A DNA stretch of 64,000 nt. Origin: an uncultured Granulosicoccaceae bacterium (lineage in GTDB: Bacteria; Pseudomonadota; Gammaproteobacteria; Granulosicoccales; Granulosicoccaceae). This document shows positions 8,100-13,985 of this stretch, piece by piece. The notes beneath the pieces were generated by a model. It ran no database searches and was not told the DNA's origin. It saw only the letters and a program-made list of their open reading frames with translations. Location of the stretch: the NCBI GenBank assembly GCA_938005265.1, contig CALLOA010000094.1, positions 1-64,000 of the forward strand. Reading direction: 5' to 3'. Position 1 is the stretch's first letter. Every line of letters begins with the position of its first letter. A program made the position numbers and the translations under genes.

Positions 8100-9458
8100 A
8101 TGACTGAATTACGCAGAGAGGAAACCCAGGACGAGCAACTGGCGCGACTGACCAGTATCGTCGAAAGCGGCTCCTTCAGTAGCGCCAAAGCCTTGCTCGG
8201 CGCTTTGCATCCTGCAGAAATTGCCGACTTGCTTGAATCATTGCCGCAACAAGAGCGCATTGTTTTGTGGGATATGGTTGATTCTTCTCTGGAAGGTGAC
8301 GTACTCCTTGAAACTCACGAAGAGGTGCGCACAACACTGTTGCGACAAATGGACTCTCGGGAAATCGTTGAAGTTTCGCAACACCTCGATCTCGACGATC
8401 TGGCTGACTTTATCCAGTCGCTACCGGAGAAGCTGACCCGGGAGGTGCTTGCCGGGATGACGGATCAGCATCGGCGACGTCTCGACCAGGTTTTGTCCTA
8501 CCCTGAAGATAGTGCGGGTGGCCTGATGAACCTCGATACTGTGACTGTCAGGGAAGATGTGACCCTGGATGTCGTGCTTCGCTATCTACGGCGACGTGAC
8601 TCATTGCCACGTCACACGGACAGACTGATAGTCGTGGATACGTCAGACCGCTATGTTGGCGACCTGCCGATACGCCGACTGCTAACCAACAAAACGACGG
8701 AACGTGTGTCCTCGGTTATGCGACGTGACAGCCAGACAGTGCCAGTCACCATGAGTCAGCGCGATGTAGCTCGCGTATTTGAAGACTATGACCTTATTTC
8801 AGCCGCCGTGCTGGATGAAAACGATCGCCTGCTAGGCAGAATAACCGTTGATGATGTAGTTGATGTTATCCGCGAAGAAGCTGAGCAGTCTGTACTTAGC
8901 ATGGCAGGCCTGAATCAGGAGGATGACATATTCGCATCCGTTATCAACAGTGCGCGTAAACGCGCACTGTGGCTGGGTGTCAACTTGCTTACTGCGGTTC
9001 TGGCATCCTGGGTCATATCCAGGTTTCAGCTGACTCTGGACAAGATCGTGGTACTGGCCGTTCTCATGACTATTGTGCCGAGCATGGGGGGAATTGCCGG
9101 CAGTCAGACCTTAACCCTGGTGATCCGCGGCCAGGCTCTGGGCCAGGTAAACCCGGCCAACTCACGCGCGTTGCTTTTCAAGGAGCTTGCCGTGGCACTA
9201 CTCAATGGCTTGTTGTGGGCCAGCGTGGTGTGCGTCTTTACTTATTTTTGGTTTGGGGAGTTGTCTATTGGAGTCATTCTGGGCATGGCGCTGCTGACCA
9301 ACCTGATTTTTGCAGCATTTGCCGGCCTGATTATCCCCATCAGCTTAAAGAAAATGGGTGTCGACCCCGCCCTCGCAGGCGGCGTTCTGCTGACTACCGT
9401 AACCGATGTAGTGGGAATCGCGGTTTTTCTGGGTTTGGCAACGAAAGTTCTGCTCTAA
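8100..9458 (+). CDS. mgtE: MgtE-family magnesium transporter
   Basis: Mg2+-gated cation channel. The order is canonical: an N-terminal helical domain rich in EIADLLESLP-type repeats (residues about 20-130), a CBS pair (about 135-260, SAGGLMNLD, ITVDDVVDVI), then five membrane helices. Pore segments include PSMGGIAGSQTLTL and the final DVVGIAVFLGLA. The ATG at 8100 is preferred over a TTG at 8091; neither has a clear Shine-Dalgarno. It lies 35 bp after ptsI in the same direction, so it is likely the last gene of the PTS operon, coupling PTS state to Mg2+ supply. Confidence 0.95.
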   Translation: MTELRREETQDEQLARLTSIVESGSFSSAKALLGALHPAEIADLLESLPQQERIVLWDMVDSSLEGDVLLETHEEVRTTLLRQMDSREIVEVSQHLDLDDLADFIQSLPEKLTREVLAGMTDQHRRRLDQVLSYPEDSAGGLMNLDTVTVREDVTLDVVLRYLRRRDSLPRHTDRLIVVDTSDRYVGDLPIRRLLTNKTTERVSSVMRRDSQTVPVTMSQRDVARVFEDYDLISAAVLDENDRLLGRITVDDVVDVIREEAEQSVLSMAGLNQEDDIFASVINSARKRALWLGVNLLTAVLASWVISRFQLTLDKIVVLAVLMTIVPSMGGIAGSQTLTLVIRGQALGQVNPANSRALLFKELAVALLNGLLWASVVCVFTYFWFGELSIGVILGMALLTNLIFAAFAGLIIPISLKKMGVDPALAGGVLLTTVTDVVGIAVFLGLATKVLL

Positions 9459-9466
9459 AAAGTAAA

Positions 9467-9485
9467 GGCCTCGTTTTATGAGGCC
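9467..9485 (-). terminator. Intrinsic terminator of the DUF3391 gene
   Basis: The stem GGCCTC/GAGGCC encloses a 7-base loop. On the minus strand it is followed by TTTACTTTTT. It lies 8 bp past the stop of the minus-strand gene, between two convergent genes, so it may also slow readthrough from mgtE, although the plus side lacks a T-run. Confidence 0.7.
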
Positions 9486-9493
9486 CATACCGT

Positions 9494-9793
9494 TTAGCGT
9501 GCAGATTTTGACCAGAAGGAAGCTTTGCTGTGACCACCACACAATCGTGATGGTGATTGCCTGCTAACCAGAGTGTTTTTCTGTTCCTGCACCAATACAT
9601 ACTGTGATTCCCGGCGCACATCCTCAATGAGCTCATGCTTGTCGAGAAAGAATCCCTGAAACAGGAAATCTGTTTGCTCCCAGGGCTTATCGAGTTCAAC
9701 CACGTACATACCAAGTTTTAGCTCGTTACAGTGTACCCAACGCTCGTGGTTTACATTGATTGCTTTAGTTTTACCGGAAAGTTTGTAGTTCAT
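9494..9793 (-). CDS. Stand-alone DUF3391 domain protein
   Basis: Protein of 99 residues. Residues about 17-68 (WVHCNELKLGMYVVELDKPW, FLFQGFFLDKHELIEDV) match the DUF3391 domain that normally precedes an HD-GYP cyclic-di-GMP phosphodiesterase. No HD-GYP domain follows: after about residue 70 the sequence becomes a basic, serine-rich tail and stops. A Shine-Dalgarno GGAG sits 7 bp before the ATG and a good terminator follows, so it looks like an expressed small gene rather than debris. It could be a free-standing regulator or a decayed HD-GYP gene. It is convergent with mgtE. Confidence 0.65.
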   Translation of the reverse strand: MNYKLSGKTKAINVNHERWVHCNELKLGMYVVELDKPWEQTDFLFQGFFLDKHELIEDVRRESQYVLVQEQKNTLVSRQSPSRLCGGHSKASFWSKSAR

Positions 9794-10006
9794 GCTGTAT
9801 CTCCGCCAGGTTTGACCTGATCTTGTTTTTTGCGGCTTGTTGTCAGCCCTTGGGAGCAGATTAAGCAGCTATTAAACGATGGGCAACCTCAATCATGCAG
9901 AATTGCCAACGATTACCCGCACCCGGGCCGATCGCCTGCTTAATGTGCAGAGCCCGTCACAATCCACAAGTCATCAACAGGTTATTCACCGGTAGATGCA
10001 GTAAAA

Positions 10007-10052
10007 CACTGCATGTAGTGGTCTGCATTATAAAAAACCACATTTTATTGTG
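10007..10052 (+). promoter_or_regulatory. Distal pair of NrdR-like boxes
   Basis: CACTGCATGTAGTG (10007-10020) and CACATTTTATTGTG (10039-10052) match the NrdR-box core caCwAtATaTwGtg at 11 and 12 of 14 positions. Their centres are 32 bp apart, the spacing known for cooperative NrdR binding. The site lies about 610 bp before nrdJa and 214 bp from the DUF3391 start, so its target promoter is uncertain. Confidence 0.55.
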
Positions 10053-10140
10053 TTTTTCAATTGACCTGACAGCTACTCAGGCATACCATTATGTGGCTTG
10101 GTTCACAGGCGTCACTGCATTGCCGTATTCCTTCGGATTT

Positions 10141-10234
10141 CTGTGACACACAAAATTCTGTGACACGCAAAAGAGAAAAATTCCGGGACACGCAAAACTG
10201 GTGGGACACGCAAAATTGGTGGGACACGCAAAAG
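10141..10234 (+). repeat. Array of five GACACgCAAAA repeats
   Basis: Five copies of a unit centred on GACACGCAAAA begin near 10141, 10158, 10183, 10201 and 10219, with spacings of 17, 25, 18 and 18 bp. The last three copies share the form GGGACACGCAAAA flanked by TGG. The copies are contiguous, without unique spacers. No transposase is nearby. It may be a degenerate REP-like cluster. Confidence 0.7.
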
Positions 10235-10470
10235 AATCGCGTGCAAAAGCAATTTTTGTTGAATCACTTTATTTGTTTATTGAAAACCTTTAACTGCGGC
10301 CTCCATCAAGAGTCGCTTTAGCTGGTTACTTTACCCCTGTTATTAACCTTCTGGTTTTAACTACCAGTGTTATTCAGCGCTGGCTGAATCCATGGTTGTT
10401 GAGTTATCCACCTGACAAAATAATAAAATTCGTACAAAAGTGCCAAACACAACCATAAAGTGCAAAAAAG

Positions 10471-10516
10471 CACTACATGTAGTGGATGCACATGCGTCTA
10501 TGCACTATATACAAAT
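10471..10516 (+). promoter_or_regulatory. Proximal pair of NrdR-like boxes before nrdJa
   Basis: CACTACATGTAGTG (10471-10484) is a perfect palindrome matching the NrdR core at 12 of 14 positions. CACTATATACAAAT (10503-10516) has a perfect left half and a decayed right half. Their centres are 32 bp apart. The pair is 147-192 bp upstream of the nrdJa ATG, a normal place for NrdR repression of a ribonucleotide reductase. Confidence 0.7.
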
Positions 10517-10662
10517 ATGAGAAGGTAGAAAAAACGGTGTAATCAGGCTGTTTTTAATACCTCGGGCTCGAATAGAAACAAGCGCCGGCCAAAACGCATA
10601 GCGGTAAGCAACTGATTAATAAAATATTAAAAACGAGAATAACTGGAGTCGACGAGAAAAAC

Positions 10663-13038
10663 ATGGGAAACCCCAACCTGCAAGCGGTAAAAAACAAGAA
10701 ATCAGCAGAAAATAAAGGCACTGGCCAGAACAGACAGCAAAAACAGAAAAACCGGCACAAAGGCGACCAGGCCCAAGGAGCAGTGGTAAGCAAGGCAGAC
10801 ACAAAAGACAGTATCGAGATGACAGAGAATACAGACACAATCGAAGCAGCAGTCCTGTTTCCATCCATAGAGGGTGAAACGGATGGTGTTGCTGTTGTGG
10901 ACGCTGTTGTGGACGCTGTTGTGGATATACCGTTACAAGCCGCATCACTCGATATCTGGGACAAGAAATATCGCCTGAAAACACGCGACGGCGAGAACGT
11001 CGACGAGACTATCGACGATACTTACCAGCGGGTAGCAACAGCCCTTGCCAATGTAGAAAAACCCTCTTCCCGTGAATACTGGTTAAGGCAGTTCGTCTGG
11101 GCACTTCAACAAGGCGCAATACCGGCAGGCAGGATCACCTCCAACGCAGGCGCTCAACAGCACAAACCGGCAACGTCCACCATCAACTGTACTGTTTCAG
11201 GCACTGTTCATGATTCCATGGACGATATTCTTGGAAAAGTGCATGAAGCAGGCCTGACACTCAAGGCAGGTTGCGGCATTGGCTACGATTTTTCAACACT
11301 GCGGCCGCATGGTGCCTACGTGTCCGGCGCTGGAGCCCACACATCCGGGCCGCTGTCGTTCATGGATATATTCGATAAAATGTGTTTCACCGTGTCATCA
11401 GCCGGTGGCAGGCGAGGCGCACAGATGGGTACATTCGATGTGCGTCACCCGGATGTCCTGGAATTTATCAAAGCCAAGCGCGAAGACGGCCGGTTACGCC
11501 AGTTTAATTTATCGCTATTGATCACGGATGATTTTGTGCAAGCCGTGCGCAACGACGCACCCTGGCAGCTGGTATTCCCGATAAGGGCAAAAGAGCTGGA
11601 TGACAGCGACATTAACCTGAGCCTGAACAATACCGAGGAAGTTATCTGGCTGGAATGGCCGACACGCACAGACTTGATAGCCAATGATGAAGGCCTGGTC
11701 GCCTGTCGAATCTATCGCACTCTGCCTGCACGACGTCTGTGGGATCAGATCATGTCCTCAACCTACGACTTTGCCGAACCCGGGTTCATCCTGATTGATA
11801 AGGTCAACGAGATGAATAACAACTGGTTTGACGAAAGTATTCGTGCAACCAACCCCTGTGGTGAACAACCACTACCGCCCTACGGCGCCTGCCTGCTCGG
11901 TTCAATTAATCTTACCCGCTTTGTGGAGAAGCCCTTTACCCAGGAAGCTCACTTTAACTGGGAGCGCTTCAGGAAAACCGTAGAAATATTCACGCGAATG
12001 CTCGACAACGTAGTTGAGGTCAATGGCCTGCCACTGCCACAGCAACAACGCGAGATTTTGCGCAAACGGCGCCATGGCATGGGTTATCTTGGTCTGGGAT
12101 CAACGCTGGCATTGCTCGGTGTAGCCTATGGCTCGGATGAGTCGCTGGAATTTACTGAAGAAGTTACCCGCGAATTGGCAGTGACGGGTTGGCGTTCAGC
12201 ATTATCACTCTCGCAGGAGAAGGGTGCAGCACCGATCATGAATGAAGATTTTACGGTGTCCGGTGAAATGCTCAGACAACGTCCGGAGATGAAAACCGAC
12301 GGCTACAAAGTTGGTGACAAGGTTAAAGGTAAAGTGTTGCACGCACGATACAGCCGCTACATGCAAAAGATCGCTGCAGTCGAGCCGGAACTGGTCGAGC
12401 AATTAGCCGAACAGGGAGCCCGCTTTACACATCACAGTTCGATTGCACCAACTGGCACAATTTCATTATCACTGGCCAACAATGCAAGTAATGGTATTGA
12501 ACCGAGCTTTGCCCACCTTTACTCACGCAATGTGATTCGTGAAGGCAAGAAGAGCAAAGAGAAAATGGACGTTCACTCATTTGAACTTCTGGCCTACAGG
12601 ACATTGGTGAATGAGAATGCTTCTCCGCAAGCGCAAAGCCCGGAAGACGCCCTGCCCGACTATTTTGTCTCTGCCAATGAAATTACACCACGTCAGCATG
12701 TGGCAGTTCAGGCAGCAGCACAACGCTGGATTGATTCATCCATTTCGAAAACAGCCAATGTTCCTACTGACTTCCCTTTTGAGGAATTCAAGGATATCTA
12801 TATGTATGCCTACGAAGAAGGCTTGAAAGGCTGCACCACATTCCGCTTTAACCCGGAAGCTTTTCAGGGCGTATTGGTACAAGAAGAGGATCTTGAGAAT
12901 ACCGAATACAATTTTACGCTGGAAGACGGCTCTATTGTCAGTTGCAAGGGCAATGAGGAGATCGAATATGACGGCGAAATGCACACCGCCGCCAACCTGT
13001 ATGACGCACTCAAAGAAGGTTATTACGGAAAGTTCTGA
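10663..13038 (+). CDS. nrdJa: Class II (B12-dependent) ribonucleotide reductase, catalytic subunit
   Basis: Reduces ribonucleotides to deoxyribonucleotides using adenosylcobalamin. The redox cysteine pair is Cys176 (INCTVSG) and Cys410 (YGACLLGS). The radical-site motif is NPCGE at 397-401, with Cys399 the thiyl candidate. The final domain ends near CTTFRF and lacks the usual C-terminal CxxC arm, which is encoded separately by nrdJb, as in Pseudomonas aeruginosa NrdJab. The first about 100 residues form an unusual Lys/Gln-rich, low-complexity extension including VDAVVDAVVD, coded by a 12-bp tandem repeat near 10893-10925. The start is therefore uncertain, and an ATG at 10819 is possible. Confidence 0.93.
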   Translation: MGNPNLQAVKNKKSAENKGTGQNRQQKQKNRHKGDQAQGAVVSKADTKDSIEMTENTDTIEAAVLFPSIEGETDGVAVVDAVVDAVVDIPLQAASLDIWDKKYRLKTRDGENVDETIDDTYQRVATALANVEKPSSREYWLRQFVWALQQGAIPAGRITSNAGAQQHKPATSTINCTVSGTVHDSMDDILGKVHEAGLTLKAGCGIGYDFSTLRPHGAYVSGAGAHTSGPLSFMDIFDKMCFTVSSAGGRRGAQMGTFDVRHPDVLEFIKAKREDGRLRQFNLSLLITDDFVQAVRNDAPWQLVFPIRAKELDDSDINLSLNNTEEVIWLEWPTRTDLIANDEGLVACRIYRTLPARRLWDQIMSSTYDFAEPGFILIDKVNEMNNNWFDESIRATNPCGEQPLPPYGACLLGSINLTRFVEKPFTQEAHFNWERFRKTVEIFTRMLDNVVEVNGLPLPQQQREILRKRRHGMGYLGLGSTLALLGVAYGSDESLEFTEEVTRELAVTGWRSALSLSQEKGAAPIMNEDFTVSGEMLRQRPEMKTDGYKVGDKVKGKVLHARYSRYMQKIAAVEPELVEQLAEQGARFTHHSSIAPTGTISLSLANNASNGIEPSFAHLYSRNVIREGKKSKEKMDVHSFELLAYRTLVNENASPQAQSPEDALPDYFVSANEITPRQHVAVQAAAQRWIDSSISKTANVPTDFPFEEFKDIYMYAYEEGLKGCTTFRFNPEAFQGVLVQEEDLENTEYNFTLEDGSIVSCKGNEEIEYDGEMHTAANLYDALKEGYYGKF

Positions 13039-13169: not shown

Positions 13170-13985
13170 ATGACTATCAAAATAGACAGAAAAATAGTTG
13201 GCTACAAAGTCACCGACACGAATACCCAGGCTGCGGCTACTGAAAACAGCCCGACTTCTGTATCCACAGAAGAAAAGCGTAGTAGCGCCAGCGTAATACA
13301 GATGCATGAGACTCTGCAGAGACCTGAAGTACTCATAGGCTCCACCTATAAGATCAAGGTGCCAGAGCATGTGTCACCGCATGCCATGTACATCACGATC
13401 AATGATATCGTGCTCAACGAGGGCACGGAGTTCGAATCGCGCCGACCTTTCGAAGTGTTTATCAATACGAAAAACCTTGACCACTTTCAGTGGATTGTCG
13501 CCCTGACTGTCATCATGTCGGCCGTCTTCCGTAAAGGAGGTGATATCACGTTTCTGGTTGATGAATTACGATCGGTGTTTGATCCACGAGGTGGCTACTG
13601 GGTCAAGGGCGCATACAAGCAATCGATCATCGCTGAAATCGGTGATGTAATCGAACGCCACCTGATCAAGATTGGCATGTTGCAACCCCGTGAGATGGAT
13701 GAATCACAGAAAGAACTGATCAGACAAAAGCGGGAAGCACTGGAAAAACGCGAAGCACAAACCCAGGCGACACGTGGAACTCTGGACAGTGACAGTGATG
13801 ATGTGAATGTCAAGAGTGGCGCGGCCACAAATTTTGAAAACGCGCCGGGTACTGCCACGAACACCACAGCTGATGATGGTTTTCCGGCAGACGCCACGTT
13901 GTGTAGTAAATGTAGCCACCGTTCATGTATTGTCATGGACGGATGCATGACTTGCCTGAACTGCGGTGATTCAAAGTGCAGTTAA
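13170..13985 (+). CDS. nrdJb: Class II ribonucleotide reductase, C-terminal subunit (TSCPD domain)
   Basis: Supplies the C-terminal part of the split class II reductase. Residues about 65-170 form the TSCPD-type region (HAMYITINDIVLNEGTEFE, FEVFINTKNLDHFQWIVAL, VFDPRGGYW, EIGDVIERHL). After a polar coiled-coil and linker segment, the last about 30 residues carry the redox cysteine arm (CSKCSHRSC, GCMTCLNCGDSKC), the part that re-reduces the active site. The P. aeruginosa protein is about 229 residues; the excess here is a Thr/Ala/Asp-rich linker. It is separated from nrdJa by 131 bp with repeats. Confidence 0.92.
   Translation: MTIKIDRKIVGYKVTDTNTQAAATENSPTSVSTEEKRSSASVIQMHETLQRPEVLIGSTYKIKVPEHVSPHAMYITINDIVLNEGTEFESRRPFEVFINTKNLDHFQWIVALTVIMSAVFRKGGDITFLVDELRSVFDPRGGYWVKGAYKQSIIAEIGDVIERHLIKIGMLQPREMDESQKELIRQKREALEKREAQTQATRGTLDSDSDDVNVKSGAATNFENAPGTATNTTADDGFPADATLCSKCSHRSCIVMDGCMTCLNCGDSKCS

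Follow-up and report, generated by a model that had tools for sequence, protein, structure and literature searches.

Two NrdR-type operator pairs and a conserved predicted promoter upstream of nrdJ in Granulosicoccaceae

Results

The window (the whole 64,000-nucleotide stretch analysed here, on contig C94 of a 4.9-Mb draft genome in 212 contigs) contains a class II ribonucleotide reductase (RNR) gene, nrdJ, with a probable second cistron behind it and a short gene upstream that is read away from it:

9494-9793, minus strand: stand-alone 99-aa protein with a partial DUF3391 match, between mgtE and nrdJ
10663-13038, plus strand: nrdJ(a), catalytic part of the class II ribonucleotide reductase, 791 aa (PF02867, E 1.1e-126; PF00317)
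13170-13985, plus strand: nrdJb-like protein with a TSCPD domain, the probable second cistron (PF12637, E 1.4e-7)

The product of nrdJ is the single PF02867-type RNR in the genome, and no PF13597 protein was found; as the genome is 91% complete, the absence of other RNRs is likely rather than certain. As a repressor of dNTP synthesis NrdR is widespread, and it has been discussed as an antibiotic target. The genome encodes one NrdR (G000:C54:1779-2219), a full-length TIGR00244 match of 203 bits that lies on a different contig (C54) from nrdJ. Its translation retains D15, R17 and R26-R29, and thus the residues D15, R17 and RRRR named as contacting DNA (PMC9110341). With ATP and dATP bound, a tetramer of NrdR occupies a pair of boxes, introducing a kink of about 90 degrees into each (PMC9110341).

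A typical NrdR operator has two palindromic boxes with a whole number of helix turns between their centres, most often three, which corresponds to a 15-16-bp linker (PMC12051234). Two predicted sites of this kind lie upstream of the nrdJ operon:

10006-10053, plus strand: distal NrdR operator (predicted), boxes 10006-10021 and 10038-10053, 16-bp linker; as 14-bp boxes, CACTGCATGTAGTG (10007-10020) and CACATTTTATTGTG (10039-10052)
10470-10517, plus strand: proximal NrdR operator (predicted), strong box 10470-10485 and weak box 10502-10517, 16-bp linker; as 14-bp boxes, CACTACATGTAGTG (10471-10484) and CACTATATACAAAT (10503-10516)

Within each pair both the box starts and the box centres are 32 bp apart, and the two pairs start 464 bp from each other. 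Profile R1, built from 38 pairs from relatives with the window excluded from training, matched the distal pair at 29.5 bits (E 4.7e-8) and the proximal pair at 20.3 bits (E 4e-5), both on the plus strand in a search of the window, which bears out an earlier sequence-only reading of this DNA that had claimed two NrdR-type double operators 464 bp apart upstream of nrdJ. In a scan with a matrix learned from the family, the two sites scored 32.0 and 22.5, and pairs scoring at least 14 arise in first-order Markov sequence at about 0.0005 per kb. By this matrix, whose training included the window, the proximal pair's second box contributes only about 1.5 bits, versus 14-21 for the other three boxes; the description of both operators as complete therefore suits the distal pair but is generous for the proximal one. 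A genome scan, which the earlier reading had proposed, ranked the distal pair as the top R1 match in the 4.9 Mb (E 3.5e-6), with the proximal pair recovered just on the minus strand and at a lower score (14.8 bits, E 0.18), outranked by a marginal match at C8:19868 (E 0.045); these genome-wide statements come from a profile search that scores a limited number of candidates.

For comparison, nrdJ loci were collected from 40 relatives and 80 named GTDB contigs, oriented and de-duplicated, and the upstream DNA was scanned with the palindromic family matrix. Among 29 non-identical Granulosicoccaceae loci, which should not be taken as 29 independent lineages because some may come from near-identical species, the distal pair is present in all and the proximal pair in 27, each of which thus has both. 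The remaining two, L037 and L047, have the distal pair alone, which implies that the proximal pair is not indispensable. Direct scanning found 24 of the 27 two-pair loci; L034 was counted after an over-extended gene match had been corrected, and L033 and L038 were counted through distal pairs that have a 41-bp, four-turn period and were placed by eye. The period within pairs is otherwise 31-32 bp in nearly all relatives. These four-turn distal pairs, found here in gammaproteobacteria 412 bp (L033) and 520 bp (L038) before the nrdJ match, resemble the long spacers reported for S. pneumoniae. The sequence-only reading held that both sites matter and proposed looking for the distal pair in relatives, where its absence would have counted against this view; the pair is instead present throughout the family, and both the assignment of the sites to NrdR and the view that both matter are well supported.

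Outside the family, 69 loci from other gammaproteobacteria were scanned at a lower threshold: 34 had one pair, 35 had none and none had two, although the matrix and the profile were trained on the family and may miss weaker pairs elsewhere. In a class-wide sample of 143 genomes, no other genome carried two separate pairs less than 1 kb apart. In ten family genomes searched, the strong matches were the nrdJ pairs, except in G011, which has a further match (E 0.002) as well as a repeated sequence with many weak matches. The latter, about two dozen near-identical profile matches (E about 0.29), are spread over many contigs, several of them near contig ends, which suggests that a similar-looking sequence is carried by a repetitive or mobile element; a separate, stronger match to the NrdR-pair profile lies at C101:24733 of the same genome.

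Around the distal pair and between the two pairs lie the following features:

9960-9990, plus strand: three degenerate DnaA-box-like 9-mers, CAATCCACA, TCATCAACA and TTATTCACC, each 7/9
10061-10089, plus strand: predicted sigma-70 promoter P1, TTGACC, 17 bp, TACCAT
10139-10233, plus strand: short imperfect tandem repeats in the long inter-operator gap, unit 17-18 bp (GTGACACACAAAA / GGGACACGCAAAA; core GGGACACGCAAAA)
10404-10412, plus strand: a single DnaA-box-like 9-mer, TTATCCACC, 8/9, upstream of the proximal operator

The best-conserved predicted promoter adjoins the distal pair and is upstream of the proximal one. P1 begins 7 bp behind the distal pair in the window. Of the 29 family loci, 25 (two of them placed by eye) have a promoter of the form TTGACC-17/18-TANNNT with at least 9/12 matches at the same register, 5-10 bp past the end of the distal pair; a score this high is reached at 1.5% of random positions. 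The 11 aligned loci of genus g3 share TTGACC-18-TANNAT close behind the distal pair. L015 has no P1 at this register, and L037, L047 and L115 have weak versions. From the position of P1, transcription is predicted to start near 10095, placing the proximal pair about 375 bp into the leader; in g3 it would lie about 43 bp inside. Better copies of the DnaA-like boxes (TTATCCACA) are found at the same place in front of the distal pair in relatives, including the g3 alignment, and at least two matches at 7/9 or better occur upstream of most distal pairs, versus 13% of 110-bp background stretches. The DnaA-box-like 9-mer near the proximal operator is not conserved upstream of the relatives' proximal pairs.

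The earlier reading had suggested that a second operator might mark a second regulated promoter. A conserved predicted promoter does exist, but at the distal site, whereas none is conserved at the proximal site. This bears on the possibility of tandem promoters, in which each operator would repress a promoter of its own independently of the other, P1 in the case of the distal pair and, in that of the proximal pair, a weaker P2 that overlaps or follows it. Such an arrangement would fit the frequent overlap of NrdR boxes with the RNA polymerase site elsewhere (PMC9110341). At the P1 register, fair promoters do follow the proximal pair in three loci (L033, TTGATT-17-TATATT; L038, TTGAAT-18-TAAAAT; L115, TTGATC-16-TACATT), but a P1-type promoter follows only 2 of the 27 proximal pairs, the scores there are mostly 4-7/12, which is background, and no strong promoter was found at the window's proximal pair. 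Independent promoters would also not be expected to keep the fixed spacing of g3 described below, and we consider this explanation unlikely.

In all 11 g3 loci, 85-88 bp separate the two pairs, although the proximal pair lies 161-356 bp from the start codon and the intervening DNA has a mean pairwise identity of 64% (lowest 50%). A fixed length with divergent sequence points to a constraint on the arrangement, although part of this regularity reflects shared ancestry. Two short motifs are conserved in these same loci (L020-L023, L040-L042, L044, L052, L127 and L131): ATTACAAT within the distal pair's linker and ATTACCA immediately before the proximal pair. In the other genera the spacing is 147-481 bp with no preferred helical phase (Rayleigh p about 0.7), and a common phase across the family was rejected on this basis. 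DNA looping, as raised by the earlier reading, thus draws on mixed evidence. In such a model NrdR tetramers on the two operators would touch and close a loop around P1, as in GalR/LacI-type systems; the flanking of P1 by pairs across the family, the tightly kept length in g3 and the tetramer-tetramer contacts of NrdR in octamers and filaments (PMC9110341; PMC12176259) are all compatible with it, but the variable spacing and missing phase elsewhere are not what it predicts, and a loop through the known octamer is disfavored because DNA binding requires the octamer to come apart (PMC9110341). As a sole explanation we regard looping as improbable.

Two other readings of the distal pair are very hard to sustain. 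One is that it serves the divergent DUF3391 gene, which is found upstream and read away from nrdJ in the window and in about a dozen relatives and which, as the earlier reading noted, the distal site faces; the other, suggested by that reading, is that the pair remains from an nrd gene that was lost or moved. Conservation throughout the family excludes such a remnant, and the orientation of the conserved promoter next to the distal pair is towards nrdJ. The g3 loci, where mgtE is directly upstream and there is no DUF3391 match between mgtE and nrdJ, keep both pairs, so that this gene does not explain the distal one.

The tested 16-mer core of the repeats, GGTGGGACACGCAAAA, has two copies in the genome, both within the window's inter-operator gap, and a mobile repeat between the operators was rejected since the core was found nowhere else in the genome. 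An Rfam search of 9400-10800 gave no match and hence no catalogued riboswitch such as cobalamin, and the small ORFs between the operators in the window are unremarkable. A terminator scan between P1 and nrdJ gave one weak plus-strand candidate (10351-10367); counting both strands, the scanned stretch has four terminator-like sites, versus 1.2 +/- 1.2 in shuffles.

Discussion

We think it probable, from the arrangement of these sites, that NrdR regulates nrdJ in Granulosicoccaceae through a two-operator switch around P1. Feedback from the nucleotide pool would then rely on two operators rather than on the usual single one. In favor of such a switch are the two-pair layout in 27 of 29 family loci versus none of 69 outside, the constant register of P1, the DnaA-like boxes and the g3 geometry; further support comes from the intact NrdR, from nrdJ being the sole RNR found, from the location of the strong pairs at nrdJ in the searched relatives except G011 and from the in vitro binding of NrdR to both pairs at Listeria nrdAB (PMC12051234). 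Several observations count against it: the window's proximal pair includes one weak box, and its predicted position about 375 bp behind the start would be far for a simple promoter-level effect; L037 and L047 have no proximal pair; P1 is absent from L015 and weak in L037, L047 and L115; and a plausible promoter also follows the proximal pair in L033, L038 and L115.

In the mechanism we propose, high dATP would load NrdR-ATP/dATP tetramers onto both pairs. At the distal pair, NrdR would kink the DNA directly upstream of the -35 element, where alpha-CTD and DnaA could act, whereas at the proximal pair, in the predicted transcribed leader, it would hinder polymerase escape or elongation. With both operators at work, repression of the only RNR detected could be tighter or more graded. 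That the two tetramers flanking the nrdJ promoter would act jointly, either by looping or as an upstream block combined with a downstream roadblock, is a credible but tentative part of this proposal.

Additional NrdR boxes have been described at nrdAB of E. coli and nrdHEF of S. pneumoniae, and two NrdR pairs ahead of one operon have already been described for Listeria monocytogenes nrdAB (PMC12051234), the sole other case of two full operators in the literature searched. There, nrdABI-trxL has four NrdR boxes in two pairs with 15- and 16-bp linkers, and NrdR binds both pairs in vitro, the distal one 5-10 times more weakly and with a role that was called unclear (PMC12051234). The Listeria operon and the window are thus alike in having two NrdR pairs ahead of one RNR operon. 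They differ in that the Listeria proximal pair overlaps the RNA polymerase site (PMC12051234), whereas here the conserved predicted promoter directly follows the distal pair, with the proximal pair downstream of rather than overlapping it, and in that the Listeria target is a class I nrdAB in a different phylum, whereas ours is a class II nrdJ with an arrangement conserved across a family.

The Escherichia coli nrdAB promoter, with NrdR boxes 0, 1 and 2 and bound also by DnaA, resembles the predicted layout in its DnaA input and in having an NrdR pair (boxes 1 and 2) that reaches downstream of the promoter; it has, however, one functional pair, boxes 0 and 1 binding NrdR weakly, rather than two separated pairs flanking the promoter (PMC12176259). 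Streptomyces coelicolor nrdRJ shares the class II nrdJ target, the box type and the three-turn spacing, and its NrdR has the same DNA-contacting D15, R17 and RRRR as that of the window genome, but there a single pair precedes nrdR-nrdJ (PMC9110341), whereas here nrdR and nrdJ are on separate contigs. A promoter-flanking, family-wide two-pair layout was not found in the literature searched, a search with most subscription journals outside its scope, and joint two-operator nucleotide feedback by NrdR was not described there.

The family provides a comparative set for the role of a second operator, as it varies in spacing (133-481 bp) and in the number of helix turns within pairs (three or four), and as the proximal pair is missing from two loci. 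If our reading is correct, two-operator nucleotide feedback would have become fixed in one bacterial family, and in the window genome it would act on the single RNR detected.
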